47,752 bases of DNA from Thermodesulfobacteriota bacterium (GCA_028282925.1 JANQGV010000313.1:1-47752), one strand, 5' to 3'. Numbered from the stretch's first letter, positions 9,235 through 26,158 are shown. Made by a program: numbers and translations. The notes: a model not told the origin generated them from the sequence alone.

Positions 9235-9383
9235 TTCCATCCTCCTTTCAAGCACGTCAGAGAAAAAACGTTGCACAGTTCAAAAAAACTCTCTAACAAC
9301 TTCCGACATTCAGCGTTTGTGCCCGTACGCCGTGATACAACGCAACTCATACTCTCCAGGCATCGTCACAGCCGTTGCACCTA

Positions 9384-10526
9384 CTAAATACACTGCCGCA
9401 ACAGTTTTGTCGCCTCTTGATTGTCCGGGTCGATTTTCAGTACATCTTTCAAGGGCCTCTCGGCCCGTATCAGCATTCCCTGTGAAATATAGGCCCGGGC
9501 AAGCTGCATCTTTACATCGATATTGTTCTGTTCAAGCCGCTCTGCCTCCTGCAGGTAAAACACCTTATCATCGTCACTATCACACATGCAACCCAGCTTG
9601 TAATAGATATCTGCCTTGGGCGGCCCCATTTCCAGCACACCTTTGAGCAACTTGGATGCATAGTCCCGGGCATCCTGTTCCACACAGTAATTGGCGACCT
9701 CCTCCTTGACCGCAAGGGGGTCTCTTGCCAGTTCAAAAACCTTATTAAAAACCGGGATGGCTTTGTCGACCATGTTTTTCCGTACAAGAATCTTGCCCAG
9801 ATTAAGTCCCCGCTCATAATGCCTCGGACTGATGGCGACGGCTTTGGCAAAATATTTCATGGCCTTGTCGATATCGTCCTGATTCAGGTACAGGTCGCCC
9901 AGATGATTAAAGGCAATAACATCGATCTTGTTCATCTCCGCCGCCTTCAACAGGTACTGCTCAGCCCGTTGCACATCCCCCTTCTGCATATGATACTCAC
10001 CCAGATCACGCAGAGGTCTGGATGAGTTGGTATTGGCCTCGATTGCCAGACCGGCTTCCTGTATGGCGGAATCAAGATCACCACCTTCCGCAAACTGGGC
10101 TGCTTTTCTCAGGTGTTGTGTCATGGGAGTGGGGTTGTTGGCTTTTTCGATAACCTGGGGAACTTTTTCTTTAAGCAGGTTAACGGTAATCGGCTTGAGA
10201 AGATAGGCGTCTATGTCGGATTCGGCGGCATTGGTGATAAATTCCTGCTCGGCGTGGCCGGTAATCATAATGACCGGCATATCCCGGAGTTCCTTGTCGT
10301 TTCGTATAATACCGATCAGTTCAAGCCCGGTAATACCTGGCATGTTGTTATCGAGCATTGCCAGGTCATACATACCTTCCTTCAGGGCTTTAAGAGCATC
10401 TTCCCCGTTGTTGACATAATTGAATTTTTTACCAAACTTCAGGATCCGCATGATGCCTCTGATAGAGTTATACATATTCTCCATATCATCAGCAATCAAC
10501 ACCGACATTTCCCGAATATCTATCAT
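9384..10526 (-). CDS. Response regulator with receiver and C-terminal TPR array
   Basis: A 380-residue protein. Residues 5-125 are a receiver domain with acidic pair Asp13/Asp14, phosphorylated Asp59 (AMLDNNMPG), Thr89 (VIMITGHAE) and Lys111 (LLKPI). Residues about 135-380 hold TPR repeats, for example PLRDLGEYHMQKGDVQRAEQ, VIAFNHLGDLYLNQDDIDKA and KMQLARAYISQGMLIRAERP. There is no DNA-binding or catalytic output domain, so output is probably through protein binding. The start has AAGGAGAG eight bases upstream. It lies between a small PD-(D/E)XK-like gene (27-base gap) and the GAF histidine kinase (149-base gap), all on the minus strand, which suggests one signalling unit. Confidence 0.88.
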   Translation of the reverse strand: MIDIREMSVLIADDMENMYNSIRGIMRILKFGKKFNYVNNGEDALKALKEGMYDLAMLDNNMPGITGLELIGIIRNDKELRDMPVIMITGHAEQEFITNAAESDIDAYLLKPITVNLLKEKVPQVIEKANNPTPMTQHLRKAAQFAEGGDLDSAIQEAGLAIEANTNSSRPLRDLGEYHMQKGDVQRAEQYLLKAAEMNKIDVIAFNHLGDLYLNQDDIDKAMKYFAKAVAISPRHYERGLNLGKILVRKNMVDKAIPVFNKVFELARDPLAVKEEVANYCVEQDARDYASKLLKGVLEMGPPKADIYYKLGCMCDSDDDKVFYLQEAERLEQNNIDVKMQLARAYISQGMLIRAERPLKDVLKIDPDNQEATKLLRQCI

Positions 10527-10553
10527 TCCGGTCTCTCCTTCTGCTTGAGGATG

Positions 10554-10931
10554 TTATACCTCCATAAGGTATGCTTCCAGCCCAAGCTCCTTGAGCCTGT
10601 TCTTGACGTCATCAACCGACCCTTTGGGAAAAACAACATAAAACATGGCTTTGTTGACGTCCGCATACGAGGCAAACAGTTTCCACTGGTCAGCGGTATG
10701 CTCATCATTGATTGAATCTTTTGTTTCAACTTCAAAAATTCGGAAATCGTCATCGCTACGGGCGGTTACGTCGGGTAAATACCCTTCGCCGGAGGACTCC
10801 CATATGATTCTGCGGGGCTGCTTGAAGCCCTGCAGGTCTGCCCGGACATCTTTATAACCTTTTCCGACCAGGATTTTAGCTACATACTCAACCATCCGGT
10901 CATGTTCAATCTGGCTGCTGCGATTTGCCAT
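10554..10931 (-). CDS. Small protein resembling the PD-(D/E)XK nuclease fold
   Basis: A 125-residue protein with a good ribosome site (AGGAGAGG) before the ATG at 10931. The layout suggests a minimal restriction-endonuclease-like fold: an N-terminal helix (EHDRMVEYVAKILVGKGYK), then YLPDVTA with Pro53-Asp54, a strand with IFEVETKDS (Glu67, Glu69), and a helix with Gln82-Trp83 (ADQWKLFASYA). The usual catalytic Lys of E-x-K is replaced by Glu69 here, although Lys71 is close. Activity is therefore uncertain, and it may only bind DNA or serve another role. It is the first gene of the minus-strand group with the response regulator and kinase. The assignment rests on motif order only. Confidence 0.6.
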   Translation of the reverse strand: MANRSSQIEHDRMVEYVAKILVGKGYKDVRADLQGFKQPRRIIWESSGEGYLPDVTARSDDDFRIFEVETKDSINDEHTADQWKLFASYADVNKAMFYVVFPKGSVDDVKNRLKELGLEAYLMEV

Positions 10932-11015
10932 CTGTATCCTCTCCTATTTCGGTACAAATAAGTATATCTTTTATAAATAAATAAAAAAATGACGAATTAT
11001 ACCATAATCAGTTCC

Positions 11016-11044
11016 TTGACTCTTAAGCCGGTCTCCCCTATAAT
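11016..11044 (+). promoter_or_regulatory. Near-consensus sigma-70 promoter
   Basis: TTGACT at 11016-11021 and a perfect TATAAT at 11039-11044 are 17 bases apart. It points at the small membrane protein gene starting at 11090. A minus-strand TATAAT is also seen at 10996-11001, without a good -35 box, and could serve the divergent gene at 10931. Confidence 0.7.
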
Positions 11045-11089
11045 GCGTATTAATAGAAGACGTGATTTCAACAAAAAAAGAAAGTCCGC

Positions 11090-11284
11090 ATGGCATTAAA
11101 GAAAAATATTCAGACTGCAAGTTACGCTTGTGCTACATGTACTATTATCTTCGGCATGTTTTTGGTAATATTTACAAAATTATTCGACAACCGCCTGCCG
11201 GTTTTTCCGGAGTGGCTGCCCCTCGTAATCCTGCCGCCCTTGTGTGTCTATCTTGTTTTGCGTGACCCTGAAAACGCAGACTAA
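11090..11284 (+). CDS. Small two-helix membrane protein
   Basis: A 64-residue protein, MALKKNIQTASYACATCTII onward. Two hydrophobic stretches, about residues 13-31 and 43-58, look like membrane helices separated by a short loop with PEW. The tail RDPENAD is polar. A strong promoter at 11016-11044 drives it, and AGAAAG precedes the ATG. I do not recognise a family. An overlapping frame from 11062 is rejected because it lacks a membrane or domain pattern. Confidence 0.55.
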   Translation: MALKKNIQTASYACATCTIIFGMFLVIFTKLFDNRLPVFPEWLPLVILPPLCVYLVLRDPENAD

Positions 11285-11318
11285 CGCGGATGCGTCCATC
11301 CCCAAAAAGCGGCCCCTT

Positions 11319-11564
11319 TTATTCTGGAACCATCAAGGCCCATGAATCGAACATACCATTATAGCGCAGTACATATTCCCGATTGTCGCTGCCCCGGATT
11401 TTAAAATAGTCCAGATACGACTTCCCCGGCCCGGGACTGCCCTCGTACCACCTGTCAATGATTTCCGTTACCTCAATCAGACATCCTTGGTAACGAAAAC
11501 GCAGGGGCCGTTCATTGGCCCTATAGCCCGAATATGCCGAAACATCAACAGACTCAAATCTCAT
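11319..11564 (-). CDS. Small hypothetical protein, 81 residues
   Basis: The ATG at 11564 is preceded by CCGGAG with five bases between, which favours it over an upstream ATG at 11627. The protein starts MRFESVDVSAYSGYRANERP. It is rich in aromatic and charged residues arranged as alternating beta strands: RFRYQGCLIEVTEIIDRWYE, then YLDYFKIRGSDNREYVLRYN, and DSWALM at the end. There is no signal or membrane segment, so it is probably a small cytoplasmic beta-rich protein. I cannot give it a function. It is followed by no minus-strand gene and stands alone. Confidence 0.6.
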   Translation of the reverse strand: MRFESVDVSAYSGYRANERPLRFRYQGCLIEVTEIIDRWYEGSPGPGKSYLDYFKIRGSDNREYVLRYNGMFDSWALMVPE

Positions 11565-11719
11565 GACGACTCCGGGAACCTGAAGCATGCTGCGCGCGGG
11601 GAAAACAGTGCTGCACCGACGCTGCATGATTGATATAGTTCATCACTGCGTAATTGTAAAGGTAAGATGTCTTAACCGGCACATACCACCTCGATATTTA
11701 AGGATGGTAGTATCCTGTT

Positions 11720-11748
11720 TTCAGAAAACCGTTTTTTTGGTATATACT
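11720..11748 (+). promoter_or_regulatory. Candidate promoter for the methyltransferase gene
   Basis: TTCAGA at 11720-11725 and TATACT at 11743-11748 have 17-base spacing. The ATG follows at 11775 with GGAG just upstream of it. Confidence 0.4.
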
Positions 11749-11774
11749 GAAAAACAAAAACATTCGGAGACGGT

Positions 11775-12329
11775 ATGTCTGAACGAGAATGGGAGTCCAG
11801 ATATCAACAAAAAGAGTTGTCGGACATTCCACAGCCGGCCCTGCTCCTCCAACAAAACAGCCGTCTGCTCACCGGCGGTGGAAACGCCCTTGATATTGCC
11901 ATGGGCATGGGCCACAATGCCGTGTATCTGGCCTCCCGTGGATACCGGGTTACCGGCGTAGACAGGGCCGGACCGGCAATTACCCTTGCCGAAAAGCACG
12001 CCGAACTCCAGGGAGTTACCCTCAACGCCGTTGAGGCCGATATGCTCGTATTTCCCATTGAAGAAAACAGCTACGATCTGATAATCAACTTCTATTTCCT
12101 GGAAAGATCGCTGCTGGGTGCGATACAAAAGGGATTAAAGCAGAACGGTCTTCTTTTTTTCGAAACCTATACGGTTGAGCAGCCCCGTTTCGGACCCCCG
12201 CATAACCCCGATCACCTTCTAGAGAAAAATGAACTCATCGAGTCGTTTTTGGGCCTGTTCATCCTGTTTTATCATGAACGCATTCAGAATGGAAAGGCCA
12301 TAGCCTCTCTTATCGCCCGCAAAGTTTGA
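11775..12329 (+). CDS. SAM-dependent methyltransferase, class I (TehB-like)
   Basis: A 184-residue cytoplasmic protein with the Rossmann-type SAM fold. Motif I is ALDIAMGMGHNAVYLASRGY near residues 38-57, close to the usual LDlGcGxGrnA form but with Met in place of Cys. The acidic residue after strand 2 is VTGVDRAG. Motif for the adenine side is VEADMLVFP, and post-motif strand 4 is YDLIINFYFLERSL. The end has the FFETYT strand typical of small TehB/UbiE-like enzymes. The substrate cannot be read from the sequence; relatives detoxify or modify small molecules. It is a single gene with its own likely promoter and converges with pepA. Confidence 0.8.
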   Translation: MSEREWESRYQQKELSDIPQPALLLQQNSRLLTGGGNALDIAMGMGHNAVYLASRGYRVTGVDRAGPAITLAEKHAELQGVTLNAVEADMLVFPIEENSYDLIINFYFLERSLLGAIQKGLKQNGLLFFETYTVEQPRFGPPHNPDHLLEKNELIESFLGLFILFYHERIQNGKAIASLIARKV

Positions 12330-14054: not shown

Positions 14055-16532
14055 TTACTGTTTCCTTCGCAAAATGAAGGCGGGTTTACAAAGTGCAATA
14101 CAACTGGGAATAATCAGCACAGCACCCAGCATATTGAATAAAAGAATAATGGCAAGCAGCAGCCCCATCAGGGCCTGAAACATCATTTTCGACATAAACC
14201 AGAACACAATACCGCACACAAGCGTTGTGGCAATGTAAACAATCGCCTTACCGGTGGTTCCCAATGCCCGACAGATTGCATCATTCAGATTTCCGGTTTG
14301 CCTGAATTCTTCCACAATACGACTCACAAGGTAGATACCATAGTCCACACCCAGTCCGATTCCTACCGACGAAACCGGCAGTGTTGCCGTGGTCAGGGGC
14401 AGCGGTGGATTGTTCAATACCATAAAGGTGAATGCCAGCACATTGGAGAGAATAAGGGGGACCGTGATAATCAGGCCAGCGAACAGGGATTTAAAAATCA
14501 CCGTACAGAGAACGAACACGGTCAGCAATGCCAGGATAAACGTCCATATCTGGTACAGGGTCAGGGCTTCATTAATGCCGGCCTGTACGCCCACGGCACC
14601 TCCGGCAAGGCGGTAGTGCACGTTAGGCGGTGCTCCATAGGCTGAGCCGATATCCTCGAGGGGCGGCTTCTCCGGCATCGGCGGCGGCTGTTCACGGAAA
14701 AAGCCGTCCAGCCAGTATACAAATTTGTCGAACCCGTGCCGCTCAACATCCTGCACCCGTTTACCGAAGGGCGATTCATTGCGGATATAGTCGTTCACCC
14801 TGTCGATAACGATTTTTATGGTTTCAGCGGTTTTGTCACGGCAGAAAATGATAACATTGGTCATCATGTCCTCATTGTCGATAAAGCGGTCGAAACCTCC
14901 CGGCCCGGCCGAATCGATCACCGTTCGGAACAGCAGCATCAGCTGCGTGTCTTCCGAAGGCACAAACTGCCAGTTCAGGTCGTTATCTCTCACCGCCCGG
15001 TTGCGCGCCGGGATCGACCCCAGCACGGACAGGGTCGAAATAACCCGCATATCAGGGGTGCGCTTCATGTAGCGTGAGAAGTTTAAAACATCGCGCAGTA
15101 CCGCCGGATACCCGATTGCCTGCTGACGGTCGCCTTCTACCACGATAAAGAGCGGATTCAGCATGGGCATGGCAAAGGTTATCCGGAATGAGTCTACATT
15201 ATAGCGGTGCCAGGGCCACAAAATTTCCGAGCCGGGCACGGCATTGCCGATGGTAATGTCGTTCACATGGGTGCTTCCCCACACGAGCAATACCAGAGAA
15301 CACCCCAGGGTTGCATACTTGCCCCATGATACCACCCAGCGCCCGGTAGCGTGCAACAGCCGGTCGAGCAGCCCGTCGCCTTCTTTGGCGGTCTTAATCG
15401 GCATGTACGACAACAAAATCGGCACGAGAATCATGGCAATAACAACCGTAGCAAAAGCCCAGAACGCGCACGACAGGCAAATTTTCTGCAAAATCGGTAT
15501 CGGGGTCAGGGCAATGACGATAATACCGGATGCGTCCGTAATGATACCGGCGAACCCGGGAACAAACAGGTGCTCGATCACGCTCTTGCAGGCCGGCTTG
15601 ACGTCACCCAGCAGGTAAGCTTCCTCCTTATAGCGCTTGATGACCTGTACCGAATGGGAAGCCGCCATGGCGGCAATCAAAAAAGGGAAAACCAGCACCA
15701 GCGGGTCAAGGTTGAAGCCCAGCAGGCTTAAAAAGCCCAGCCCCCAGATCGCGCTGATTCCGGCAGCCACTATCGGCAGCAGCATTCCGCGCTTCGAACG
15801 AAAATAGATCAGGAACACAACCATCATGGCAATAACCGTAACCGCCAGGATCTTGAGCACATCGCCCACATAACTGTCGATATATCCCAGGTGCATGGGC
15901 TCACCGGCTATGGCAATGATGTGGTCCTTGTTTTCATACCGGGCGCGCAATTCCCGCAATTGCTGAAATACCACCCGGTAGTCGATCTCATCTTCAAAAA
16001 AATCGACCATCACAAGGGTTTTCCTGCTGTCGAGGGATACCAGCGACGGATAACACATGGGATTGCCGTAAACAATGCTGCGCAACTCTTCGATTGCTTC
16101 CCTGGTTTTAGGCACATGGGGGTACATTACGCTTTTGATGGACATACCCTCGGAACTCATCTTTACATTTTTAACCTTGTTGCTGGCCAGGGAAAGGATT
16201 TTAAACCGGTCCACCCCCTGGAGCTGCAGGCAATCCATGGTGATTGCCTTGACCCTGCTCAGGGTCTCATAATTAAAAATATCATCATAGGAGCCGCCGT
16301 CTTTCCGATCCCGCACCTGTATCATTATCAGCACCTGGTTGGCGCCGCCGAATGTATTGCGAACCTCATCGTGCAGCTTGATGTAGGCGTGATTGCGGGG
16401 CAAAAGATCGGAAAAAACCGTTTTAACCGTCAACCGGGTTACGGCCTGATACAGAAAAAAGGCCGTTAAAAGCATAATGGCGATGAGAATAATGAGCCGC
16501 TTCTCAATTATTATTTCAGCAAAACGTTTCAT
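14055..16532 (-). CDS. RND/MMPL-family transporter
   Basis: An 825-residue inner-membrane protein from the ATG at 16532. An upstream ATG at 16607 would prepend a polar, non-conserved stretch. The fold is RND-like: one helix near residues 12-30, a large periplasmic domain to about residue 225, a helix bundle about 230-420, a second periplasmic domain to about 655, and a second bundle to the end (VPLILSNVLAFTFMVLNN, VSSVGIGLGVDYGIYL). The motif GVDYGIYL matches MMPL and hopanoid-type RND proteins, which move lipids or hydrophobic compounds using the proton gradient. GAGG lies 13 bases before the ATG. It is the last gene after the DUF1302, DUF1329 and YCF48-like genes, a recurring neighbourhood, and is closed by the terminator at 14000-14025. 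Confidence 0.88.
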   Translation of the reverse strand: MKRFAEIIIEKRLIILIAIMLLTAFFLYQAVTRLTVKTVFSDLLPRNHAYIKLHDEVRNTFGGANQVLIMIQVRDRKDGGSYDDIFNYETLSRVKAITMDCLQLQGVDRFKILSLASNKVKNVKMSSEGMSIKSVMYPHVPKTREAIEELRSIVYGNPMCYPSLVSLDSRKTLVMVDFFEDEIDYRVVFQQLRELRARYENKDHIIAIAGEPMHLGYIDSYVGDVLKILAVTVIAMMVVFLIYFRSKRGMLLPIVAAGISAIWGLGFLSLLGFNLDPLVLVFPFLIAAMAASHSVQVIKRYKEEAYLLGDVKPACKSVIEHLFVPGFAGIITDASGIIVIALTPIPILQKICLSCAFWAFATVVIAMILVPILLSYMPIKTAKEGDGLLDRLLHATGRWVVSWGKYATLGCSLVLLVWGSTHVNDITIGNAVPGSEILWPWHRYNVDSFRITFAMPMLNPLFIVVEGDRQQAIGYPAVLRDVLNFSRYMKRTPDMRVISTLSVLGSIPARNRAVRDNDLNWQFVPSEDTQLMLLFRTVIDSAGPGGFDRFIDNEDMMTNVIIFCRDKTAETIKIVIDRVNDYIRNESPFGKRVQDVERHGFDKFVYWLDGFFREQPPPMPEKPPLEDIGSAYGAPPNVHYRLAGGAVGVQAGINEALTLYQIWTFILALLTVFVLCTVIFKSLFAGLIITVPLILSNVLAFTFMVLNNPPLPLTTATLPVSSVGIGLGVDYGIYLVSRIVEEFRQTGNLNDAICRALGTTGKAIVYIATTLVCGIVFWFMSKMMFQALMGLLLAIILLFNMLGAVLIIPSCIALCKPAFILRRKQ

Positions 16533-16563
16533 AGTAGTACCGCTGCCTCCTCTTATTAACCGT

Positions 16564-17649
16564 CTATTCTGTCCCGCCGCCGAATTCAAGTGCCTTGGGC
16601 ATTTCAAAAAAGGTCATGGCATAGGAAAGTCCCGAATAAAATTCCCAGGTTGTTCCTCCATCCGCAGTATGCACCACCGTTCCCGAGGCTCCAACCACCC
16701 AGCCGTTATCAGGGCTGCTGAAAAAAACGTCCCGGAAAGAAAACTTCGACTTAATCACCCCCTCCAGGCTGCGCCAGGTGTCGCCGCCGTCTTCAGACAC
16801 AACGTAGGCCCCCTTGTCCCCTACGGCATAGCCCCTGTCGCCCTTCACAAAAATGGTCTGCAAGGTCAGGTCTGTCCCGGTCGAAAGAATGTCCCAAGAC
16901 CGCCCGCCATTTTCTGTTTTAAGGACTACTCCGTCGATACCACAGGCCCACCCTTTTTTGTGATCAAGGAACTGGACACTGAACAGGGACGGCCGGGGGT
17001 TAACCAGTTCGTCTTCCAGGTTTTCACGCTCAAAAGCCTTGGGCATCTGCACGTTCCAGGTGGCCCCGGCATCGGTCGTGTGCAGAATGGTCCCCCGCTC
17101 CCCAACGATCCAGCCCGTCATCCGGTCCACAAAGCAGACATGATTATAAATTTTGTCGTTCTCCTCACCCTGCGGCTTCCATGTCCTGCCTCCGTCGCCG
17201 GTATGCAGGATGGTGCTCCATTCTCCGACTGCCCAGCCGTTATCAGGGTCGGCAAAAGCAATGCCGAACAAATGTCTCCGGGTACCGGAATCCTGCCTGG
17301 TCCAGGTTGCGCCGCCGTCGGTGGTATGCAGAATAACACCGTAAATACCCACAATCCAGCCGACCTTTTCATTGAGAAAGATGCCGTCTATCAGAATCGG
17401 CTCTTTTACCCCCGATTCCTGCCGTTTCCAGGTTGCACCGCCGTCTGCCGAATGAAAAATAACGCCGTAATTACCGGTCAGCCAGATATGGCGGTCATCC
17501 GGGGCGATTATTCCATGCAGATTCTCGGGGGTGATGCTTTTAATATCGGGTGGTTTCATCTTCTGACGCGATTTTGTGCAGCCGCACAACAGCCCGGCTG
17601 CGCAGCATACAACAAGCAGCATTCGAAACACATTACATAGTCGTGGCAT
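16564..17649 (-). CDS. YCF48/HCF136-like beta-propeller lipoprotein
   Basis: A 361-residue protein from the ATG at 17649, which has GGGGAGA upstream and restores a clean signal sequence. The lipobox is LLCGC with Cys24, so it is probably membrane-anchored. The mature part has at least six repeats with the pattern G-W-x-V-G-x-x-G-x-I-x-x-T-x-D-G-G-x-T-W, for example GWIVGIYGVILHTTDGGATW and GWVVGASGTVVHTADGGTTW. This is the YCF48/BNR type propeller known from photosystem II assembly factors. In non-phototrophs such proteins sit beside DUF1302, DUF1329 and RND genes, as here. The precise role is unknown; a periplasmic adaptor for the transport set is a reasonable inference. Confidence 0.88.
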   Translation of the reverse strand: MPRLCNVFRMLLVVCCAAGLLCGCTKSRQKMKPPDIKSITPENLHGIIAPDDRHIWLTGNYGVIFHSADGGATWKRQESGVKEPILIDGIFLNEKVGWIVGIYGVILHTTDGGATWTRQDSGTRRHLFGIAFADPDNGWAVGEWSTILHTGDGGRTWKPQGEENDKIYNHVCFVDRMTGWIVGERGTILHTTDAGATWNVQMPKAFERENLEDELVNPRPSLFSVQFLDHKKGWACGIDGVVLKTENGGRSWDILSTGTDLTLQTIFVKGDRGYAVGDKGAYVVSEDGGDTWRSLEGVIKSKFSFRDVFFSSPDNGWVVGASGTVVHTADGGTTWEFYSGLSYAMTFFEMPKALEFGGGTE

Positions 17650-17724
17650 GTATCTTCTCCCCTGGTGTCGACGTCCCACGCCGGGCATCTCAAACCGGAA
17701 AAGCACCGGCGCGTGAACAGCGCA

Positions 17725-18996
17725 TCAATATGTTTTTTGCAGGTTGCTGAGGGTGAAAATATTTGGATTCACGTCAATCCCGATCCCCTTAACATCCATC
17801 TTTGTAAACCCGGAATGGGTACGCTGCAAATCCTGCATGGTAAAGCCCACAAAGAAATTTTTCATTTCTCCTTTTGCGGTCTTTATATCATTGGTATGAT
17901 GGGTAAAACATTTCCAGTAGCGGCCTAATTGGTCATACATTTCCTGCCAGTGAATAATGTAGGACTCGGGATCGATATACCACACTCGCTTACTGTAGAT
18001 GTAGTCGGGGTCCTTGTTAACGGCTTCAATGACCAGGGTATTACAGCGCTCGAAGGTATACCCGTTGGCCAGGGCCTGTCCCGGTCGCCGGGTCACGACC
18101 GACATGTCCTGGTGGCGGGAAAGCAGCATCTCCTTTTTGCCTTTATAGGTATAGGTATTGCGGCTGATATGCCCGTCCCACTGGTTGCCGTCGTCATAGA
18201 TCTGGTCGGTTCCGTCGATGGCATTGGTCCGTTCGGCGGTGGAAAGTCTCCTGATCCGCCTAAACTGGGCATAGTACAAATAGGAGATATCGGGTTTGTC
18301 GTAATCGATAAACCGCATGGTGATGAAGCGGGTGTTGTTCATTTCCGGAGGTAAATACATGTGCATGAACTGCCCCTTCATGTACCCCTTTGGATTTTTG
18401 GCAATTGCCGGGCGCGGATCCACATCGACCCGGTGCACAAAATACATCTCCGTAAATTCCTGTTTGGCAACCCGGTCGGACTTGGTCCGGGGGTTGATAT
18501 TGGGAGACCACCACAGCATTTTATACGTATCGCCCCGGGTCTGCATGTCCACATTATAGGCAACTTCAAAGCCGGTCTTGGGGCTGGGGAACGGCATCCC
18601 GGCAATATTGGTGTAATTGACGATCTTACCCTCGGCATCGGTTTTCACCAGGGGGGCATATTTTCTGGTTGCCTCGATCATGCCCTGTGTTTCATTGATG
18701 CGCTTATAGGGTCCGATATAGAAATAGTATCCTTCTTCCGGGGCATACCACTTCTCCTCATTTTTGAACAAATCGAGCCAGGGCTCAGGCAAAAATTCAG
18801 CTACCTGGTCGATAGAGTCTTTGGTTATCTTTTTGCCGACCCAGGCCTTCTCCCACTCCCTGACCTGTGCCAGTTCTTCCGGGGTGTAGGCGGCAACCGG
18901 AAACACAACTTCACCGGCCACGGCGGTGAATGCCGTCAGCAACACCACGGCTACGGCTGTCGTAAAAAGTATGCTCCAGCGTTGTTTCACCATCAT
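17725..18996 (-). CDS. DUF1329 outer-membrane-associated protein
   Basis: A 423-residue exported protein. The signal peptide covers about residues 1-28 (VVLLTAFTAVAG). The mature part is the DUF1329 type, related in shape to LolA/LolB-like half-barrels: FPEAAYTPEELA-like opening, MPFPSPKTGFEVAYNVDM in the middle, and RVWYIDPESYIIHWQEMYDQ and FVGFTMQDLQRTHSG near the end. In Marinobacter the DUF1329 protein AupB works with the DUF1302 protein AupA in hydrocarbon assimilation; I transfer only the association, not the substrate. AAGGAGGG precedes the ATG with five bases between. It is 33 bases after the DUF1302 gene and is clearly in one operon with it. Confidence 0.9.
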   Translation of the reverse strand: MMVKQRWSILFTTAVAVVLLTAFTAVAGEVVFPVAAYTPEELAQVREWEKAWVGKKITKDSIDQVAEFLPEPWLDLFKNEEKWYAPEEGYYFYIGPYKRINETQGMIEATRKYAPLVKTDAEGKIVNYTNIAGMPFPSPKTGFEVAYNVDMQTRGDTYKMLWWSPNINPRTKSDRVAKQEFTEMYFVHRVDVDPRPAIAKNPKGYMKGQFMHMYLPPEMNNTRFITMRFIDYDKPDISYLYYAQFRRIRRLSTAERTNAIDGTDQIYDDGNQWDGHISRNTYTYKGKKEMLLSRHQDMSVVTRRPGQALANGYTFERCNTLVIEAVNKDPDYIYSKRVWYIDPESYIIHWQEMYDQLGRYWKCFTHHTNDIKTAKGEMKNFFVGFTMQDLQRTHSGFTKMDVKGIGIDVNPNIFTLSNLQKTY

Positions 18997-19029: not shown

Positions 19030-20592
19030 TTAAAACTCATAGCGCAATCTTAAAATGATGCTGTCTTTGGACGACGAGACCCGCGAAGCATATCTGAAGC
19101 GCCGCTTGCCGCCCCCGTAGGCCACATACGCAAGGTCGGCGCGCCAGTGGATACCTGGAAAAACATAGGTAAGGGACGGAACCGCCATCCACTTGCCGAT
19201 CCGCAGGTAATAGTTACCGGTAAAGACGAACACAAACGACTGGTTAAGCAGGTCCTGCTGCATAAACAGGATTATCGAGTCGGTGGAGGAATCTTTATAG
19301 TAGTGGTTCCGGTCGCCCACCACCAGGTCGCGGTCGTGATTGAATATTTTTTCCCAGAAGTAGGTAACGCTGATATCAAGCATCCGGCCGGTGCCGATAT
19401 TTTCGGTAAACCATGGAATAGTGAATTTCTTACTGCACTGCAGGGCCGCGCCCAGGGCATCGCGGCGGGTCCAGTCATACACCGCGCCGCTGTCGCCGTC
19501 GGTGCCTTTGTTCATGGGGCTGCCGATTTCATAAAACCACTCAAGTCTCCAGACCGTGCTGAACAATTTCTCACTATAGGTCTGGGCCGTCCCACCGATG
19601 GTCTGATAGCGCTTGAATTTAAACACCCGTCCACCGTTCCACTCACCCACATCCGGGGTGCGTCCGTTGATGCCGGCCTGAATGTATATCAGGGTATAGG
19701 GGGTGACCCGGTAGGGATTTGCCACAGGGCCGTCGGAGCGGGCGTTGTAATACAGCAGGGTCCAGTCGATGTCCCAGGTATAGCCCCGGACCCTGAAGCC
19801 CAGTTCCCAGTTGTCCCAGCCCCAGTTATGGGCATCTCGGCTCCAGCGTTCCCGTTGCCAGTGATAAATCCCGAACCCGATACCGAAGGGATTAACCTGG
19901 TGTATCGGACTGCCGTAATGGGTTCCTTCATAGGGCAGTTCAATATTGCGGTAATGCCCCGGGTTGAAAATAAATTCAAACAGCAGGCTGCCGGGAAGTT
20001 CGGACTGGTAAAACCCCCGGATCATCCAGAGGCCCATCTTGACCTCTTCCCAGGTATCGACCCCGGGTGTGCCGCGGCGAAGATCAAGAGGGTTGACCAC
20101 GTCGGCCACCCGTTGCATATCCAACTGCCCCCAGATGACGATTTGCTTGCCGATACGAAGCTGCCAGGGACCCTTGATAATGTCGATGTAGGCTTCCGTC
20201 AGGATGTCATCGTCGAAGTGCCTGGGGTGCACATAGTCCTTGCGGTCGTTATGGGCCATGTGCCGGCCGAGGTTGTCATCGATGCGGGGCGCTTTTTCCC
20301 ACCACCATTTCACTCCGCCGAAAAGCCGGATGGTGGTTTCGCCCTTGTTATATACCGTGTAAAGCGCTTCAAAAAGGACGCTGGTTTGGAGAAAATCAAG
20401 GCTGGTATCGCGGTACTGTTTTTCGCGGTCAAGCATCGCGGTTCTGATGTAGGCGGTCTCCTTGACAAAACCGCTGATGATCAGTTTGCCGTCCATAAAC
20501 TCCGAAGAAGCCTGAGCAGGAATACAAAAAAACAGGGATAATAAAAGTGCCGCAAGGAAGGTTGTGGTTGTGGATGTACGGTTGTTTTTCAT
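19030..20592 (-). CDS. DUF1302 outer-membrane beta-barrel protein
   Basis: A 520-residue protein from the ATG at 20592, which has AAGGAGGG upstream; an earlier ATG at 20649 lacks these features. A signal peptide ends near QASS (residue 30). The rest alternates aromatic and polar residues in many beta strands and ends with Phe (LRLRYEF), the usual signal for outer-membrane assembly. Family blocks include LRIGKQIVIWGQLD followed by VVNPLDLRRG. Relatives such as AupA are placed in the outer membrane and linked to hydrophobic-compound uptake. It is the first gene of the four-gene set 20592-14055. The 307-base gap in front may hold its own promoter or carry transcription through from the nitrogenase-like operon. 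Confidence 0.9.
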   Translation of the reverse strand: MKNNRTSTTTTFLAALLLSLFFCIPAQASSEFMDGKLIISGFVKETAYIRTAMLDREKQYRDTSLDFLQTSVLFEALYTVYNKGETTIRLFGGVKWWWEKAPRIDDNLGRHMAHNDRKDYVHPRHFDDDILTEAYIDIIKGPWQLRIGKQIVIWGQLDMQRVADVVNPLDLRRGTPGVDTWEEVKMGLWMIRGFYQSELPGSLLFEFIFNPGHYRNIELPYEGTHYGSPIHQVNPFGIGFGIYHWQRERWSRDAHNWGWDNWELGFRVRGYTWDIDWTLLYYNARSDGPVANPYRVTPYTLIYIQAGINGRTPDVGEWNGGRVFKFKRYQTIGGTAQTYSEKLFSTVWRLEWFYEIGSPMNKGTDGDSGAVYDWTRRDALGAALQCSKKFTIPWFTENIGTGRMLDISVTYFWEKIFNHDRDLVVGDRNHYYKDSSTDSIILFMQQDLLNQSFVFVFTGNYYLRIGKWMAVPSLTYVFPGIHWRADLAYVAYGGGKRRFRYASRVSSSKDSIILRLRYEF

Positions 20593-20899: not shown

Positions 20900-22633
20900 C
20901 TACATACCCAGTTCTTTACGAAAAGCCTCCACAATACTGCCTGTAATTTTTTCATATCCGTGGTCCCGGGCATAATCCTCGGTGCCCGAAACCGCCGCCT
21001 GCCTGAAGGGAGACGGTACCAGTTCAAGCATCTGCTTGGCATCATCCTCCCACGGCATGCCGAATGCAAGACTGTCGACCGGTATCTCCTCGTCATCCTC
21101 TGCCGCGGGCTCAGGAGAAGACTCACCGTTGTCTTCAAAAACGGCTGAAAACTTAGCCTTGAACTTTGTGGGGGTGTATTTATCGGATACTTCCTGAATA
21201 ATCCCGACCGTAACATTTGAACCCCGCTCTTTGGCGGTCTGCTCGGCCACCTGGTGCAGTTTTTTCACCGCTGTTGAGCGCACAAAGTGCGGAATCATTT
21301 CCGAAACCTTCATCAGGGCTTCTTCCGCCGCAATGTCCCAGGGAACCGCCCCGGTGGAAATGGGTCCGGTCATTTCCCCCTTTGTTTCCAGAAATATCCC
21401 CATGTAGACCTCATTCACAAGGGACTGGATCAGATACTTCGCACCCCGGAACCCCATGAAGGGACAGTTTTCCGTGCTGAGATACCCGATGGTAGGGATA
21501 TCGGCGAAAATAAAGTTCTGAAAACCCTGGTCCATGCTGATTTTTTTATCGTAAAAGTTGCCGAATATGGCCATGGGGGCCGTTGCAACAAAGGCTTCGC
21601 CCTTCTCTTCGATGGTGGGGGACACCAGCACCCGGCCGCAGACCTCTTTGACCCGTTCTGCAGCCTGATCGCTGCTCACCGAGCAAAGCACATTGGTAAC
21701 ACCGGCTTCAGCGGCAAAAAACTCGCTGATACCGACGGCATAGGTATTGTTGTTGTCAAAAGAGAGTGCCGCGCTCATTTCAAAGGTTACGGTAAAAAAC
21801 ATGTTCGAGCGGGCAAAGTTTATGGCGCTCTGCATCTCCTCCCGCACAAATGCGGTATCGCTCAGAGAGAAAAACCCGGCGATTTTCTCAAGCCAGCGGG
21901 CTGAACTTTCAAACCCGATGGGGAGAATATCGTCCATATAGGGCATGCCGAAACGTTTTTCCATCTCTTTGGCCACCTCCACGCCGCAGTCAAACGGATA
22001 CATGCACACATTCAGGCCTGCCCGGGGCGCCCGCTGTATTTCTTCGATAGTGGCCCCGGCCGTCATAACCGTGTTGACGGTGACGCCGATTCCGGCCAGC
22101 ATTCGCTTCAGCTCGCACACATCGGCCATCCAGTTAAACGTCGAATAGGTCGGGCCGATGAGGTTGACACTGTTCGGCAGCGTATCAGCCTCGGTTTGCA
22201 TGATGTCCAGCAGCTTTAAGAGTGCTGCATCCTTGCCGTCGGTAGCAGTTCCGCCGATGGGGGGTCGAACGATGACCGTGTTTTGGAACCCGACCTTATT
22301 TGCAACTCCTTCAACATCATCCTGGGTCACTTCAACCGACGGGGCCGTAATGACGATAATGGCAGTAGGATCTTTTTTGATTACTTTGTGCACCACCTCT
22401 TCAAGCTTGTCTTCGGCACCCTGCATAACATCGGCATAGGACAGATTGGTGGAATAAAGCTCGGCGGTCCAGTCGTTTACCAGAACATTCACGTGCTGGT
22501 TGATAGAGCATCCGGGCGGTGCATGAAATATCGTGCGTGCATCCGTGATGCCCATTGCCGCCCAAAGCGCCCCTTCAAAGGCCGAGGGCGTGTGAATTTC
22601 CTGCATTCTGAAATCTTTCGCATCACCAGCCAT
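20900..22633 (-). CDS. Nitrogenase-like component 1 subunit, BchB/ChlB type with PCP_red tail
   Basis: A 577-residue catalytic subunit. The ATG at 22633 is chosen because GGAGG lies six bases upstream and it begins just after the preceding stop; an earlier ATG would overlap that gene. The N-terminal 430 residues are a nitrogenase MoFe-type fold: HAPPGCSINQ near residue 42, ITAPSVEVTQDDV, and NCPFMGFRGAKYLIQSLVNE. The last 45 residues (LVPSPFRQAAVSGTEDYARD) match the C-terminal PCP_red domain of protochlorophyllide reductase subunit B. Cys42 falls where BchB has its cluster ligand Asp36; the other two ligand positions carry no Cys, as in BchB. An acidic linker (residues about 490-525) precedes the tail. 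No pigment gene is nearby, so the substrate is unknown. It is the last gene of the MarR-headed operon. Confidence 0.85.
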   Translation of the reverse strand: MAGDAKDFRMQEIHTPSAFEGALWAAMGITDARTIFHAPPGCSINQHVNVLVNDWTAELYSTNLSYADVMQGAEDKLEEVVHKVIKKDPTAIIVITAPSVEVTQDDVEGVANKVGFQNTVIVRPPIGGTATDGKDAALLKLLDIMQTEADTLPNSVNLIGPTYSTFNWMADVCELKRMLAGIGVTVNTVMTAGATIEEIQRAPRAGLNVCMYPFDCGVEVAKEMEKRFGMPYMDDILPIGFESSARWLEKIAGFFSLSDTAFVREEMQSAINFARSNMFFTVTFEMSAALSFDNNNTYAVGISEFFAAEAGVTNVLCSVSSDQAAERVKEVCGRVLVSPTIEEKGEAFVATAPMAIFGNFYDKKISMDQGFQNFIFADIPTIGYLSTENCPFMGFRGAKYLIQSLVNEVYMGIFLETKGEMTGPISTGAVPWDIAAEEALMKVSEMIPHFVRSTAVKKLHQVAEQTAKERGSNVTVGIIQEVSDKYTPTKFKAKFSAVFEDNGESSPEPAAEDDEEIPVDSLAFGMPWEDDAKQMLELVPSPFRQAAVSGTEDYARDHGYEKITGSIVEAFRKELGM

Positions 22634-22635
22634 GT

Positions 22636-23871
22636 TCATCCTCCATACTGTTCCATTAAGGTTTGCCACTTTTCATATACCGGCTGCTTCAGATTTGCAA
22701 AAAAATTGGCTCCAAGATCAAGGGCATAATCGTAGCCGTATTCGGTAAGATACAGCATATTGATAACGGTGGGGACAAAGCGCTTCATGGATTCAACCTG
22801 GGCCTGAAATTCAACAGCTACGACCGTTGGATTGATATCGTCAATGACGTCTTCGATGGTATCAAAATCATCCTCGATAAACGTCACCCCATAACGTTCC
22901 TGCATGATCTTTTTTTCCTGCTTGTAAAAGGCGTTCTTCATACAGGGAACCACGTGGACCTCGGCGCCGAATTCAGCCATGATTTTTCCTATGGATACTT
23001 CATTGGCCGGGCCGGTCACCAGGAGCATCCGCACCTTTTTTTCGGCAAACGATTTCCGAATTGTGTCCAGTTCCGGCTGTACCCGCTTTTCTTCCGCATC
23101 CACCAGATCGTGCAGTTTCTGGTTATTATGCCGGTCGGCCACCGCCCGCAGGAAATTGGACGTGCCCTGGATGCCGGCCGGAATTTCGATAAAGCGGCTT
23201 TCAATACCGTGACGGTCATGAAGCTTTTTGCAGGTCAAATGGTTGGTGATATGTATGGAATAGACGCTTTCGGCGCAGGCGATTTTTTCCATTTCATTGA
23301 TATGCGGAGCCGGAAACACGAATGTCTGCATGCCGGCTTTTTTCAGGTATACCTCGATGGCGGCCATATTGCCTGCATCCTGGCCGGTCCGGCCGACAAT
23401 GCCCACCGATCCGGCAACCTTCTCCTGCTCAGGGAATGCCCTCACAAGGGCCGCCCAGGAGGTATCTGATCCCAACGGCATTGACCGGGGATAGTTGAAC
23501 CCCGTATTACAGTACACGACCTTCAGGTCCGGCACTTCTTCCTGAAGCTCCATAATAACACCGTCTACATCCTCGCCGATCAACTGGGGCACACAGGTGT
23601 TGATGATAAACACATAACGGGGCTTGTATTTGTTGTAGAGGTTGACGATCTGCTGCTTCAGGCTCTGCTCGCCTCCGAAAATAACATCGCTTTTGTTGAT
23701 GAGCGTTCCGGCGGTAACAAGCTGGGCCGGCCGGCACGACATGGACCCTACCTGGTTCTGGTATAAACAGGGTTGGGGGCCGTGCAGTAGCGGCACAACA
23801 CCTTCAATTTTGCCCAGGCTTGCCAGGGCCTGGATGGTTGAACAGCAATGCTCATAGCTCTTCAATGGCAT
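22636..23871 (-). CDS. Nitrogenase-like component 1 subunit, NifD/NifK/BchN type
   Basis: A 411-residue subunit from the ATG at 23871, with GGGAGGT upstream. Three Cys fit the bridging-cluster ligands: Cys10 (EHCCST), Cys35 (LHGPQPC) and Cys93 (INTCVPQLIGEDVDG). Their spacing of 25 and 58 residues equals that of NifK Cys70, Cys95 and Cys153. Other typical blocks are GIVGRTGQDAGN and KPVYEKW near the end. It should pair with the BchB-like subunit encoded just downstream to form the component receiving electrons from the NifH-like proteins. No nifB, nifE or nifN is in the window, so an iron-molybdenum-type cofactor is not indicated. The upstream NifH-like gene stops 17 bases before this start. 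Confidence 0.87.
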   Translation of the reverse strand: MPLKSYEHCCSTIQALASLGKIEGVVPLLHGPQPCLYQNQVGSMSCRPAQLVTAGTLINKSDVIFGGEQSLKQQIVNLYNKYKPRYVFIINTCVPQLIGEDVDGVIMELQEEVPDLKVVYCNTGFNYPRSMPLGSDTSWAALVRAFPEQEKVAGSVGIVGRTGQDAGNMAAIEVYLKKAGMQTFVFPAPHINEMEKIACAESVYSIHITNHLTCKKLHDRHGIESRFIEIPAGIQGTSNFLRAVADRHNNQKLHDLVDAEEKRVQPELDTIRKSFAEKKVRMLLVTGPANEVSIGKIMAEFGAEVHVVPCMKNAFYKQEKKIMQERYGVTFIEDDFDTIEDVIDDINPTVVAVEFQAQVESMKRFVPTVINMLYLTEYGYDYALDLGANFFANLKQPVYEKWQTLMEQYGG

Positions 23872-23888: not shown

Positions 23889-24740
23889 TTAGTTGGTTGC
23901 GTCTTTTTCCCTGGACCACCAGGCATGCAGCTCTTCAAAGCTCATGGACGTGGGCACCGTATAGCTGTTGTTGTCCCATATGGCATCCGCCAAATTCCTG
24001 AACGCATCGCATTCGGGCGAATCGGGATAGAGCTGAAACAGGGTCACCCCTTTGCCCGAACACTCCTTAATCCTCTCACTGTAAGGAATAAACCCCACAA
24101 TCCGGCTTCCCAGCTTTTGTGCCCCTTCGGATAGAACATGCTCCTCGTTGGCCATTTCACGCAGGTTACCGATAATGCCTCCCAGCCTGGCGCCGGAACG
24201 GGCATTAAATCGGGCTACCGCCTTGCATATATTGGAAGCCGCAAACAGCACCTCCAGCTCGCCGCTGCTCACGATATATATCTCATTTGCATGGCCTTCA
24301 CGAATGGGCATCGAGAATCCGCCGCAGACGACATCACCCAGCACATCATACAAAACAACATCAAGCTGGAGGTTCTCGAATACATTGAGATGCCGCAGTG
24401 TTTCAATGGCTTCAACAACGCCCTTGCCGCCACAGCCCAGCCCCGGATCAGGCCCCCCGCTTTCGGCACAAAAGATGTGCCCTGAGCACTCTCCACTCAG
24501 GGGGCTTTCCAGCACGACTTCATCCCTGGTAACGGATTGCACCTTAAAATCTTTTTTTCGCAGGGTGCCTAAAATAGTCGGCGGCATTTTCCCCCGGAGC
24601 AACAGTCTTGTGCTGTCGTGCTTGGGATCACAGCCCACATGCAACACTTTCAGCCCCTTGGCCGCCAGGGCAAACGAAATATGGGAGGAAACCATGGATT
24701 TCCCGATACCGCCTTTACCATAAATAGCCATCTGCCGCAC
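23889..24740 (-). CDS. NifH/BchL-like Fe protein, copy 1
   Basis: A 283-residue ATPase and electron donor. The start is GTG at 24740, with AGGAGA seven bases upstream; an ATG three codons later is too far from that site. The P-loop is YGKGGIGKSM, with Met16 in place of the usual Thr. Switch I is GCDPKHDSTR as in NifH. The ligands for the subunit-bridging [4Fe-4S] cluster are Cys103 (DPGLGCGGKGV) and Cys139 (DVLGDVVCGGFSMP), matching NifH Cys97 and Cys132. It is a paralogue of the gene immediately upstream, with 75 bases between. A single homodimeric Fe protein is usual, so the pair may form distinct donors or a heterodimer. Confidence 0.9.
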   Translation of the reverse strand: MRQMAIYGKGGIGKSMVSSHISFALAAKGLKVLHVGCDPKHDSTRLLLRGKMPPTILGTLRKKDFKVQSVTRDEVVLESPLSGECSGHIFCAESGGPDPGLGCGGKGVVEAIETLRHLNVFENLQLDVVLYDVLGDVVCGGFSMPIREGHANEIYIVSSGELEVLFAASNICKAVARFNARSGARLGGIIGNLREMANEEHVLSEGAQKLGSRIVGFIPYSERIKECSGKGVTLFQLYPDSPECDAFRNLADAIWDNNSYTVPTSMSFEELHAWWSREKDATN

Positions 24741-24815: not shown

Positions 24816-25655
24816 TTAATCAAGATACGGCAACCACCACTCGTAAAGCTGTTCAAAATCAATATTATTGGGAATAATCATCTCTGTGTTCGCAAAAACG
24901 GCCTCACCGATGCCGCGATATACCTCAACCTCATCGGAATCCGGCGCACCAAAAAACACCGTCTCTCCCTTTCCGCCGCACTCCTTGACAACTTGGCTGA
25001 AGGGTATCATGCCGATGATGCGGGTACCCAACGTACCGGCAAAATCACGGACCATCTTCTGCTCGTTTTTCACCCGCCGCAGATTCACGATCAGGCCTCC
25101 AAGCTTAGAGCCTGAACGTTTTTCAAACCGCCGGATCGCTTTGGAAACATTGGTAACCTGGTACAGGGCCTCAAACTCCCCGCTGGTCACCACATAGGTC
25201 TCACGGGCATACCCCTGCCGGATAGGCATCGAAAAGCCCCCGCATACCACGTCTCCAAGTATGTCGTAGATAACGACATCTATGGCAAGCTCCTTGAAAA
25301 TGTCACAGCGGGTCAGGGTTTCAATCGCCTCCACCACCCCTTTTCCGCCACAACCGACGCCCGGCTCCGGCCCCCCGCTTTCAGCACAAAATATTTTCCC
25401 CCCGTCGGGAAATTCGAGGGGGGACTCGGCAATGATATCTTCCGGGATTATGTCTTCATACTCAAAATCATGGACACGAAGCACATCCAGAATGGTCGGC
25501 GGAAAATCGGGCAGCAACAGGTAGGTACTGTCGTTTTTCGGACTGCAGCCCACCTGCAACACCTTCAGTCCGCGCCGGGCAAATGTACATGACAGGTGCG
25601 ATGCTACTGTAGACTTTCCTATCCCCCCTTTGCCGTAGATAGCTATCTGGCGCAT
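24816..25655 (-). CDS. NifH/BchL-like Fe protein, copy 2
   Basis: A 279-residue paralogue of the next gene downstream. The P-loop YGKGGIGKST is canonical. Switch I reads GCSPKNDSTY: Ser38 replaces the Asp equivalent to NifH Asp39, while the Lys and second Asp are kept. Cluster ligands are Cys102 (EPGVGCGGKGV) and Cys138 (DILGDVVCGGFSMP). The protein should bind MgATP and a bridging [4Fe-4S] cluster and pass electrons to component 1. GGAAGGA precedes the ATG. It follows marR by 17 bases and is the first structural gene of the operon. Whether the Ser lowers ATP turnover cannot be judged from sequence. Confidence 0.9.
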   Translation of the reverse strand: MRQIAIYGKGGIGKSTVASHLSCTFARRGLKVLQVGCSPKNDSTYLLLPDFPPTILDVLRVHDFEYEDIIPEDIIAESPLEFPDGGKIFCAESGGPEPGVGCGGKGVVEAIETLTRCDIFKELAIDVVIYDILGDVVCGGFSMPIRQGYARETYVVTSGEFEALYQVTNVSKAIRRFEKRSGSKLGGLIVNLRRVKNEQKMVRDFAGTLGTRIIGMIPFSQVVKECGGKGETVFFGAPDSDEVEVYRGIGEAVFANTEMIIPNNIDFEQLYEWWLPYLD

Positions 25656-25672: not shown

Positions 25673-26158
25673 TCAGTCGATTGTCACCTTCTGTAAAATC
25701 GTTGATACTTTTTTCAGAGATTTCACCAGCTCATCCTGGTCTGCATCGTTGAGTTTGCTGAAAACATCACACAGCTCACGGCGGCGTTTGGAGATAAACT
25801 CCTCGTGCAGGGTACGGCCCTTTTCCGTCAGGCGTACATTGACCACCCGCCGGTCGCTGGCATTGCGTACCCGTTCCAGAAATCCGGCCTGTTCCAGGCG
25901 GTCGACCATCTCCGTCATACTGGGCATTTTCACCAGGGCATTCTTGCTTAACTCACCCATGCTGTACTCGCGGTCTTCATGGAAAGCAGACAGCGCTTTC
26001 AACTGCGAGACACTGATACTCTGCACCCCAACGGCGGTAGTGTCGTCCTTGACACCCTTTACCAGTTTGTTGAATATCTGGATAAAGAGATTGCGCACCT
26101 CAACCATGTTTTGTTCAATATCCATCACTCTTTTATTGGTAACGCTTTTTCCGGTCAT
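25673..26158 (-). CDS. MarR-family transcriptional regulator
   Basis: A 161-residue winged-helix protein. The N-terminal helices (VRNLFIQIFNKLVKGVK) form the dimer interface. The core has SQLKALSAF, YSMGELSKNALVKMPSMTEM as helix-turn-helix, VDRLEQAGFLERVRNASDRR leading into the wing, and VNVRLTEKG. The Asp-Arg-Arg of the wing is the MarR hallmark. GGGAG lies five bases before the ATG. It is the first gene of the nitrogenase-like operon. A perfect palindrome overlaps the -10 box of its own promoter (26227-26248), so self-repression relieved by a small ligand is the likely mode. MarR ligands are often phenolic or otherwise aromatic; that is family knowledge, not evidence from this gene. Confidence 0.92.
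   Translation of the reverse strand: MTGKSVTNKRVMDIEQNMVEVRNLFIQIFNKLVKGVKDDTTAVGVQSISVSQLKALSAFHEDREYSMGELSKNALVKMPSMTEMVDRLEQAGFLERVRNASDRRVVNVRLTEKGRTLHEEFISKRRRELCDVFSKLNDADQDELVKSLKKVSTILQKVTID

Follow-up and report, generated by a model that had tools for sequence, protein, structure and literature searches.

A nitrogenase-like enzyme family with a probable COR-like, all-cysteine bridging cluster in a Thermodesulfobacteriota genome

Two questions are raised by a nitrogenase-like gene pair of a Thermodesulfobacteriota bacterium: which residues hold the iron-sulfur cluster between its two catalytic subunits, and what does this cluster reduce? The window, i.e. the whole stretch of DNA that was analysed, comprises 47,752 nt (GCA_028282925.1 JANQGV010000313.1:1-47752), and the pair fills positions 20900-23871 of the minus strand exactly, from the stop of the B gene through the start of the N gene. 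In DPOR, the corresponding cluster is held by three cysteines of BchN and Asp36 of BchB, with Asp274 acting as the proton donor (PMC12518044), and the lowered potential of DPOR has been attributed to this (Cys)3Asp ligation (PMC4157233). A preliminary description of the locus predicted that a cysteine replaces Asp36, and expected from this swap a potential unlike that of DPOR and possibly another substrate.

The pair belongs to a row of minus-strand genes, in which MarR, H1, H2, N and B (26158 to 20900) are followed by genes for DUF1302, DUF1329/LolA-like, Ycf48-like and MMPL/RND proteins:

25673..26158, minus strand, MarR-type regulator at the operon head (PF01047)
24816..25655, minus strand, H1, NifH-like ATP-dependent reductase (PF00142 7e-82)
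23889..24740, minus strand, H2, NifH-like ATP-dependent reductase (PF00142 1.5e-90)
22636..23871, minus strand, N-like (D/K-type) catalytic subunit, 411 aa (Pfam 2.2e-54)
20900..22633, minus strand, B-like catalytic subunit, 577 aa from ATG 22633 (PF00148 5.7e-60, C-terminal PCP_red 5.8e-15)
19030..20592, minus strand, DUF1302 outer-membrane protein, AmeA-type (PF06980 1e-13; AAGGAGG ribosome-binding site before ATG 20592)
17725..18996, minus strand, DUF1329/LolA-like periplasmic protein, AmeB-type (PF07044 2.6e-41)
16564..17706, minus strand, Ycf48/BNR-repeat protein, AmeC-type (PF14870 1.2e-42)
14055..16607, minus strand, MMPL/RND inner-membrane transporter, AmeD-type (PF03176 9.6e-24)

The N and B genes abut, the ATG of B lying 3 nt past the end of N, and both have a good ribosome-binding site (GGAGG ahead of ATG). 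H1 and H2 each carry a P-loop and both cluster cysteines; a NifH-like ATPase of this kind together with a PF00148 pair makes up a two-component nitrogenase-like system. A promoter-like match (TTGACA-16-TAATAT, 26271-26244) lies near the MarR gene, and the operon is probably under the control of this regulator. A terminator-like hairpin (14026-14004) follows the RND gene. B and the DUF1302 gene are separated by some 307 bp, a distance that counts against the proposal made below; no minus-strand terminator-like match was found in it.

The pair was scored with the NCBIfam equivalog models for DPOR, COR, Cfb and Nif, and all scores were far below cut-off. B reached 171.9 bits against DPOR_BchB (cut-off 490) and 136.3 bits against BchZ (cut-off 529), N reached 60 bits against BchN (cut-off 420) and 21 bits against BchY (cut-off 425), and the BchX scores of H2 and H1 were 178.5 and 158.8 (cut-off 331). 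By HMM, N was closest to NifE, and H1 and H2 gave their best or near-best scores, again below cut-off, to the CfbC and NifH models. AlphaFold2 single-chain models, one each for B and N, were built from homologue alignments (mean pLDDT 79 and 80, respectively). Each of the 14 best Foldseek matches of B in the PDB was a DPOR BchB/ChlB chain (TMt 0.71-0.84), and B shares with DPOR the C-terminal PCP_red domain; N matched MarD, NifK, NifE/N and BchB chains. In the tree, N and B form separate well-supported family clades; it does not fix the position of these relative to BchNB and BchYZ, nor does it tell BchZ from BchB as the closer relative of B (support 46-82).

The enzyme is carried by 11 of 17 genomes of the window's class, and the genome of the window has a single N/B pair and no other PF00148 gene. 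The order H1-H2-N-B is kept in most deltaproteobacterial and in all three gammaproteobacterial loci with the upstream side covered, and a MarR gene often precedes H1 in the deltaproteobacterial ones; an Omnitrophota locus (L031) has one NifH-like gene. We take the pair to be the catalytic part of a nitrogenase-like reductase from an unnamed family, which is served by two NifH-like reductases in tandem. Around the Omnitrophota locus and its neighbours, three radical SAM/SPASM proteins surround N-B, and the genome has no PF05996 gene. Some copies of the enzyme appear to be decaying, as suggested by an in-frame TAA in the B gene of one genome (G274, L011/L023), split B and N genes in another (G253, L030 and L024), and the remnant of a B gene between an OYE gene and a DUF1302 gene in the locus L039.

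The row of DUF1302, DUF1329, Ycf48/COG4447 and RND genes downstream of B is the same four-gene module (AmeABCD) that has been described as an efflux system from Castellaniella monoterpene metabolism (PMC6394551). B is adjacent to a DUF1302 gene in the window and in two further loci (L017 and L052). As the operon, probably MarR-controlled, runs into this module, the substrate is most likely hydrophobic and moved across the envelope.

A link to tetrapyrroles is suggested by the wider context. The genome of the window has 15 DUF1302 genes and 14 genes of PF05996 (ferredoxin-dependent bilin reductase-like, FDBR), a family found over cut-off in 12 of the 395 genomes of the phylum, including 10 of 11 enzyme carriers, although this co-occurrence is confounded by shared ancestry within one class. 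Pairs of PF05996 and DUF1302 genes within 10 kb number 15 against 3.4 expected, which is 4-5 times chance (P ~3e-6, the pairs not being independent). All three gammaproteobacterial carriers also have FDBR-like genes, two to three each, which gives the link some independent support. Four PF05996-DUF1302 clusters of the window's genome were read, and each contained parts of the module and FDBR-like genes; some also encoded an OYE protein (67-71% identical to that of L039), NAD_binding_10, a flavin reductase, a CPOX-like protein or a chlorophyllase/PETase-type lipoprotein. In one related locus (L021) an NAD_binding_10 gene lies directly downstream of B and an FDBR gene two genes downstream, and in another (L029) a chelatase pair, FeoB and an FDBR gene follow. 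Single adjacencies to FDBR genes are weak evidence, given how many of them these genomes carry. The 47.7 kb contig itself contains no FDBR-like gene, and the CPOX-like neighbour in L027 was not counted because the FDBR profile gave no match to it.

Several other features of these regions were observed. The PF05996 expansion in the non-phototrophic genome of the window (G000; e.g. L079, G000:C76:1-20000, and L110-L113) includes four copies within 18 kb on one contig (C76), and in one of the genes (L079, 2694-3674) a ferredoxin-like domain is fused to the N-terminus. The L112 locus of this genome contains an FDBR-DUF1302-DUF1329-OYE cluster, which encodes a predicted lipoprotein with a chlorophyllase/PETase-like hydrolase domain (9340-11982) and a flavin reductase whose C-terminus matches PCP_red weakly (4023-4928). 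At 12453-15717 of L029, a second N copy without an adjacent B is followed by two CbiX/ferrochelatase-like genes and FeoB.

Taken as a whole, the evidence leans slightly towards an ATP-driven, COR-like C=C reductase of a hydrophobic, probably tetrapyrrole-derived substrate. One or both NifH-like ATPases would hand electrons one at a time to a [4Fe-4S] cluster that bridges the two subunits, which would be held in a COR-like layout by Cys10, Cys35 and Cys93 of N and Cys42 of B. The cluster would then reduce a conjugated C=C bond directly, the substrate being placed in the cavity between N and B and no FeMo-type cofactor being involved. Most economically, the enzyme would do as a reductase for its own operon what FDBR-like and OYE enzymes do for the other modules. 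The genes, their alignment, the fold, the conservation, the lack of nifB and of a reaction centre, and the gene context were observed, and from these we infer the cluster type and electron path, together with the substrate class and the direction of transport. As the substrate we favour a product of chlorophyll, haem or bilin breakdown, at about an even chance, because tetrapyrrole families recur in the context and B is nearest to tetrapyrrole reductases.

With the same cluster and electron path, the substrate might instead be a terpenoid, steroid, polycyclic or lignin-derived molecule, likewise hydrophobic and unsaturated, for which the FDBR-like and OYE enzymes would serve as generic reductases. 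Terpenoids, steroids and polycyclics are the main rivals to a tetrapyrrole, and this explanation is quite possible, if on the lower side of an even chance. The Ame module is known from monoterpene and not from tetrapyrrole metabolism, only this module follows B in the window, and the OYE protein of L039 gives much the same score for bilirubin reductase as for bile-acid BaiCD. Against this, B is closest to tetrapyrrole reductases in both profile and fold and has kept PCP_red, and chelatase, FDBR and chlorophyllase-like neighbours are found in related loci and module paralogues. A more specific version of the tetrapyrrole reading, which we offer more tentatively still, is that the enzyme serves reductive tetrapyrrole breakdown in non-phototrophic anaerobes carrying some 7-17 FDBR-like genes, and that the fourth ligand in this one fold forms a natural series of Asp, Cys and Tyr. 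We know of no earlier enzyme of this kind in tetrapyrrole catabolism rather than synthesis.

The predicted ligation of the cluster depends on the following codons:

23842..23844, minus strand, N Cys10, predicted ligand, invariant
23767..23769, minus strand, N Cys35, predicted ligand, invariant
23734..23736, minus strand, N Cys46, extra family-specific conserved cysteine (xxCRP motif in most)
23593..23595, minus strand, N Cys93, predicted ligand, invariant
22508..22510, minus strand, B Cys42, predicted fourth ligand, aligned in the column of Asp36 of DPOR

The three cysteines at positions 10, 35 and 93 of the D/K-like subunit, with the spacing of 25 and 58 given in the preliminary description, were borne out with ATG starts supported by ribosome-binding sites; N also has Cys9. 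They are invariant in 15 of 15 N rows, one of which is BchY-like. A MAFFT alignment that took in other nitrogenase-like pairs besides BchN/B (Tateyamaria), BchY/Z (Sulfitobacter) and NifE/N placed Cys42 of B, in the motif HAPPGC, in one column with the BchB Asp36 (HAPQGD), the cysteines of BchZ and BchY, N Cys35 and the middle cysteine of NifE/N, as had been proposed, and a HMMER alignment to the solved DPOR chains gave the same placement. Also as described earlier, B has no cysteine at the other two nitrogenase positions, where Ser and Pro are found. A DGPVGC motif was found again in BchZ-like matches of several other genomes.

Cys42 is invariant in the 11 class-level B homologues aligned and is present in 16 of 19 family copies, namely 14 deltaproteobacterial and two Omnitrophota ones, the latter at 37% identity. 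The remaining three, from gammaproteobacterial genomes (L026, L027 and L028), have Tyr instead (HSAPGYYFN), while Cys10, Cys35, Cys46 and Cys93 of N are kept. These B homologues have 508-525 aa and match the query only to about residue 512-529; they are thus some 60-70 residues shorter, and the PCP_red region is apparently missing. In a Sporomusa homologue the fourth-ligand position is occupied by His. The position therefore varies across the fold: DPOR has Asp, COR and the bulk of this family have Cys, one clade has Tyr and the Sporomusa homologue has His. The Tyr of the gammaproteobacterial clade indicates that a thiolate is not essential to the family here.

In the B model, a strand (32-37) is followed by a helix (40-52), and Cys42 lies near the helix start, as expected for a ligand position. 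In the N model, Cys35 precedes a helix (36-45) and Cys93 starts another (93-98); the cluster loop at 34-66 is poorly predicted in the single chain, which is what would be expected of an interface region. From homology, the thiolates of N Cys10, Cys35 and Cys93 and of B Cys42 are predicted to converge.

The presence of Tyr in three homologues that conserve N Cys46 might mean that the fourth ligand is not Cys42. The cluster would then be a site-differentiated one with three cysteines, or would be completed by Cys46 of N or by another residue, with Cys42 as a leftover. This is rather improbable given the retention of Cys42 in the distant Omnitrophota copies and in the great majority of the family, and its location in the column of known or inferred ligands of DPOR and COR. 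As a fourth ligand, Cys46 itself was rejected; it stands 11 residues past Cys35, at the far end of the predicted helix 36-45, in a low-confidence region of the model. Cys46 is conserved in all family members and missing from BchY (Tyr), BchN (Phe) and NifE; it probably faces the substrate and not the cluster, and may be a substrate-site residue.

The four-cysteine ligation thus remains the preferred assignment. Reportedly, Kiesel et al. (2015) assigned four cysteines of BchY and BchZ as the cluster ligands of COR. In our alignment, the BchY cysteines have the same spacing of 25 and 58 as those of N, and BchZ has its cysteine in the Cys42 column. Sequence, fold and conservation are best accounted for by the predicted bridging [4Fe-4S] cluster with 3+1 cysteine ligation; four cysteines probably hold it, an arrangement that had been inferred before for COR. 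All-cysteine ligation is therefore a COR-like trait in an unnamed family and not a new cluster type; what is new and testable is the family, the paired reductases, the variable fourth ligand and the catabolic/transport context. The potential may well differ from that of DPOR, as was expected, and a higher value for an all-cysteine cluster is a fair expectation, since in DPOR the lowered potential has been put down to the Asp ligand.

Of the suggestion that the substrate differs, one part holds and one does not. A substrate other than protochlorophyllide is supported on other grounds: the DPOR Asp274 column in B contains Thr, Ser, Ala, Pro, Gly or Asn and no Asp (the local alignment being uncertain by a few residues), none of the 15 carriers, including the genome of the window, has a reaction-centre gene, none of them has BchM over cut-off (only generic methyltransferases below it), and the context is catabolic or transport-like. 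The Cys swap alone does not point to a new substrate class, since COR, which acts on a tetrapyrrole, has the same four cysteine columns, a 1+3 cysteine cluster was proposed for IsrDK (PMC11423573), and gammaproteobacterial members have Tyr.

Two further explanations fare much worse. A methylthio-alkane-reductase or nitrogenase-like enzyme that carries both a P-cluster and the [Fe8S9C] cofactor would agree with the similarity of N to MarD and NifK by structure and to NifE by HMM. It is very improbable, and a P-cluster or FeMo-type enzyme was rejected, because B lacks two of the three P-cluster cysteines, leaving four over the two subunits where a P-cluster has six, and no nifB was found over cut-off in the 16 genomes searched, most of which gave no match at all and that of the window only fragments far below cut-off. 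Least probable of all is a DPOR or COR of (bacterio)chlorophyll biosynthesis gained by transfer, to which the bit scores of B against DPOR_BchB and BchZ might point but which is contradicted by their distance from the curated cut-offs, the absence of Asp274, the separate clade in the tree and the lack of reaction-centre genes and of BchM over cut-off, on which last two grounds pigment biosynthesis was rejected.

The anaerobic fate of chlorophyll-type carbon is poorly known. If the proposal is true, ATP-driven nitrogenase-like reduction would extend beyond pigment, F430 and sulfur metabolism to the catabolism of hydrophobic conjugated molecules in anaerobes, and would provide an enzymatic route into chlorophyll-type carbon. 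The effect of the ligand on the potential is directly testable, owing to the natural series of Asp (DPOR), Cys (this family and COR), Tyr (gammaproteobacteria) and His (Sporomusa).

Among known systems, COR (BchXYZ) has the same arrangement of three cysteines on one subunit (25/58) and one on the other, in the same columns, and the same ATP-dependent two-component design with no FeMo-type cofactor. The family differs from it by two NifH-like genes, PCP_red on B, an N that is only weakly BchY-like (21 bits), the absence of photosynthesis genes and a linkage to a transport module. With DPOR it shares the fold of B (TMt about 0.8), the PCP_red domain and three cysteines on the N-type subunit, but has Cys for Asp36, lacks the Asp274 proton donor and scores far below the equivalog cut-offs. 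The resemblance to CfbCD (Ni-sirohydrochlorin a,c-diamide reductase) lies in H1 and H2, whose top or nearly top scores are those to the CfbC and NifH models; the two distinct catalytic subunits contrast with the CfbD homodimer, and the scores are below cut-off. The isethionate (IsrHDK) and methylthio-alkane (MarHDK) reductases have a similar nitrogenase-like H/D/K layout, and IsrDK a proposed 1+3 arrangement of cysteines (PMC11423573); in Isr the polarity is reversed, with three cysteines on K and one on D, and the P-cluster and [Fe8S9C] cofactor of MAR contrast with the absence of NifB. Finally, the module of Castellaniella defragrans (AmeABCD) likewise consists of one each of DUF1302, DUF1329/LolA-like, COG4447/Ycf48-like and RND proteins, but in the window it lies directly downstream of a nitrogenase-like reductase.
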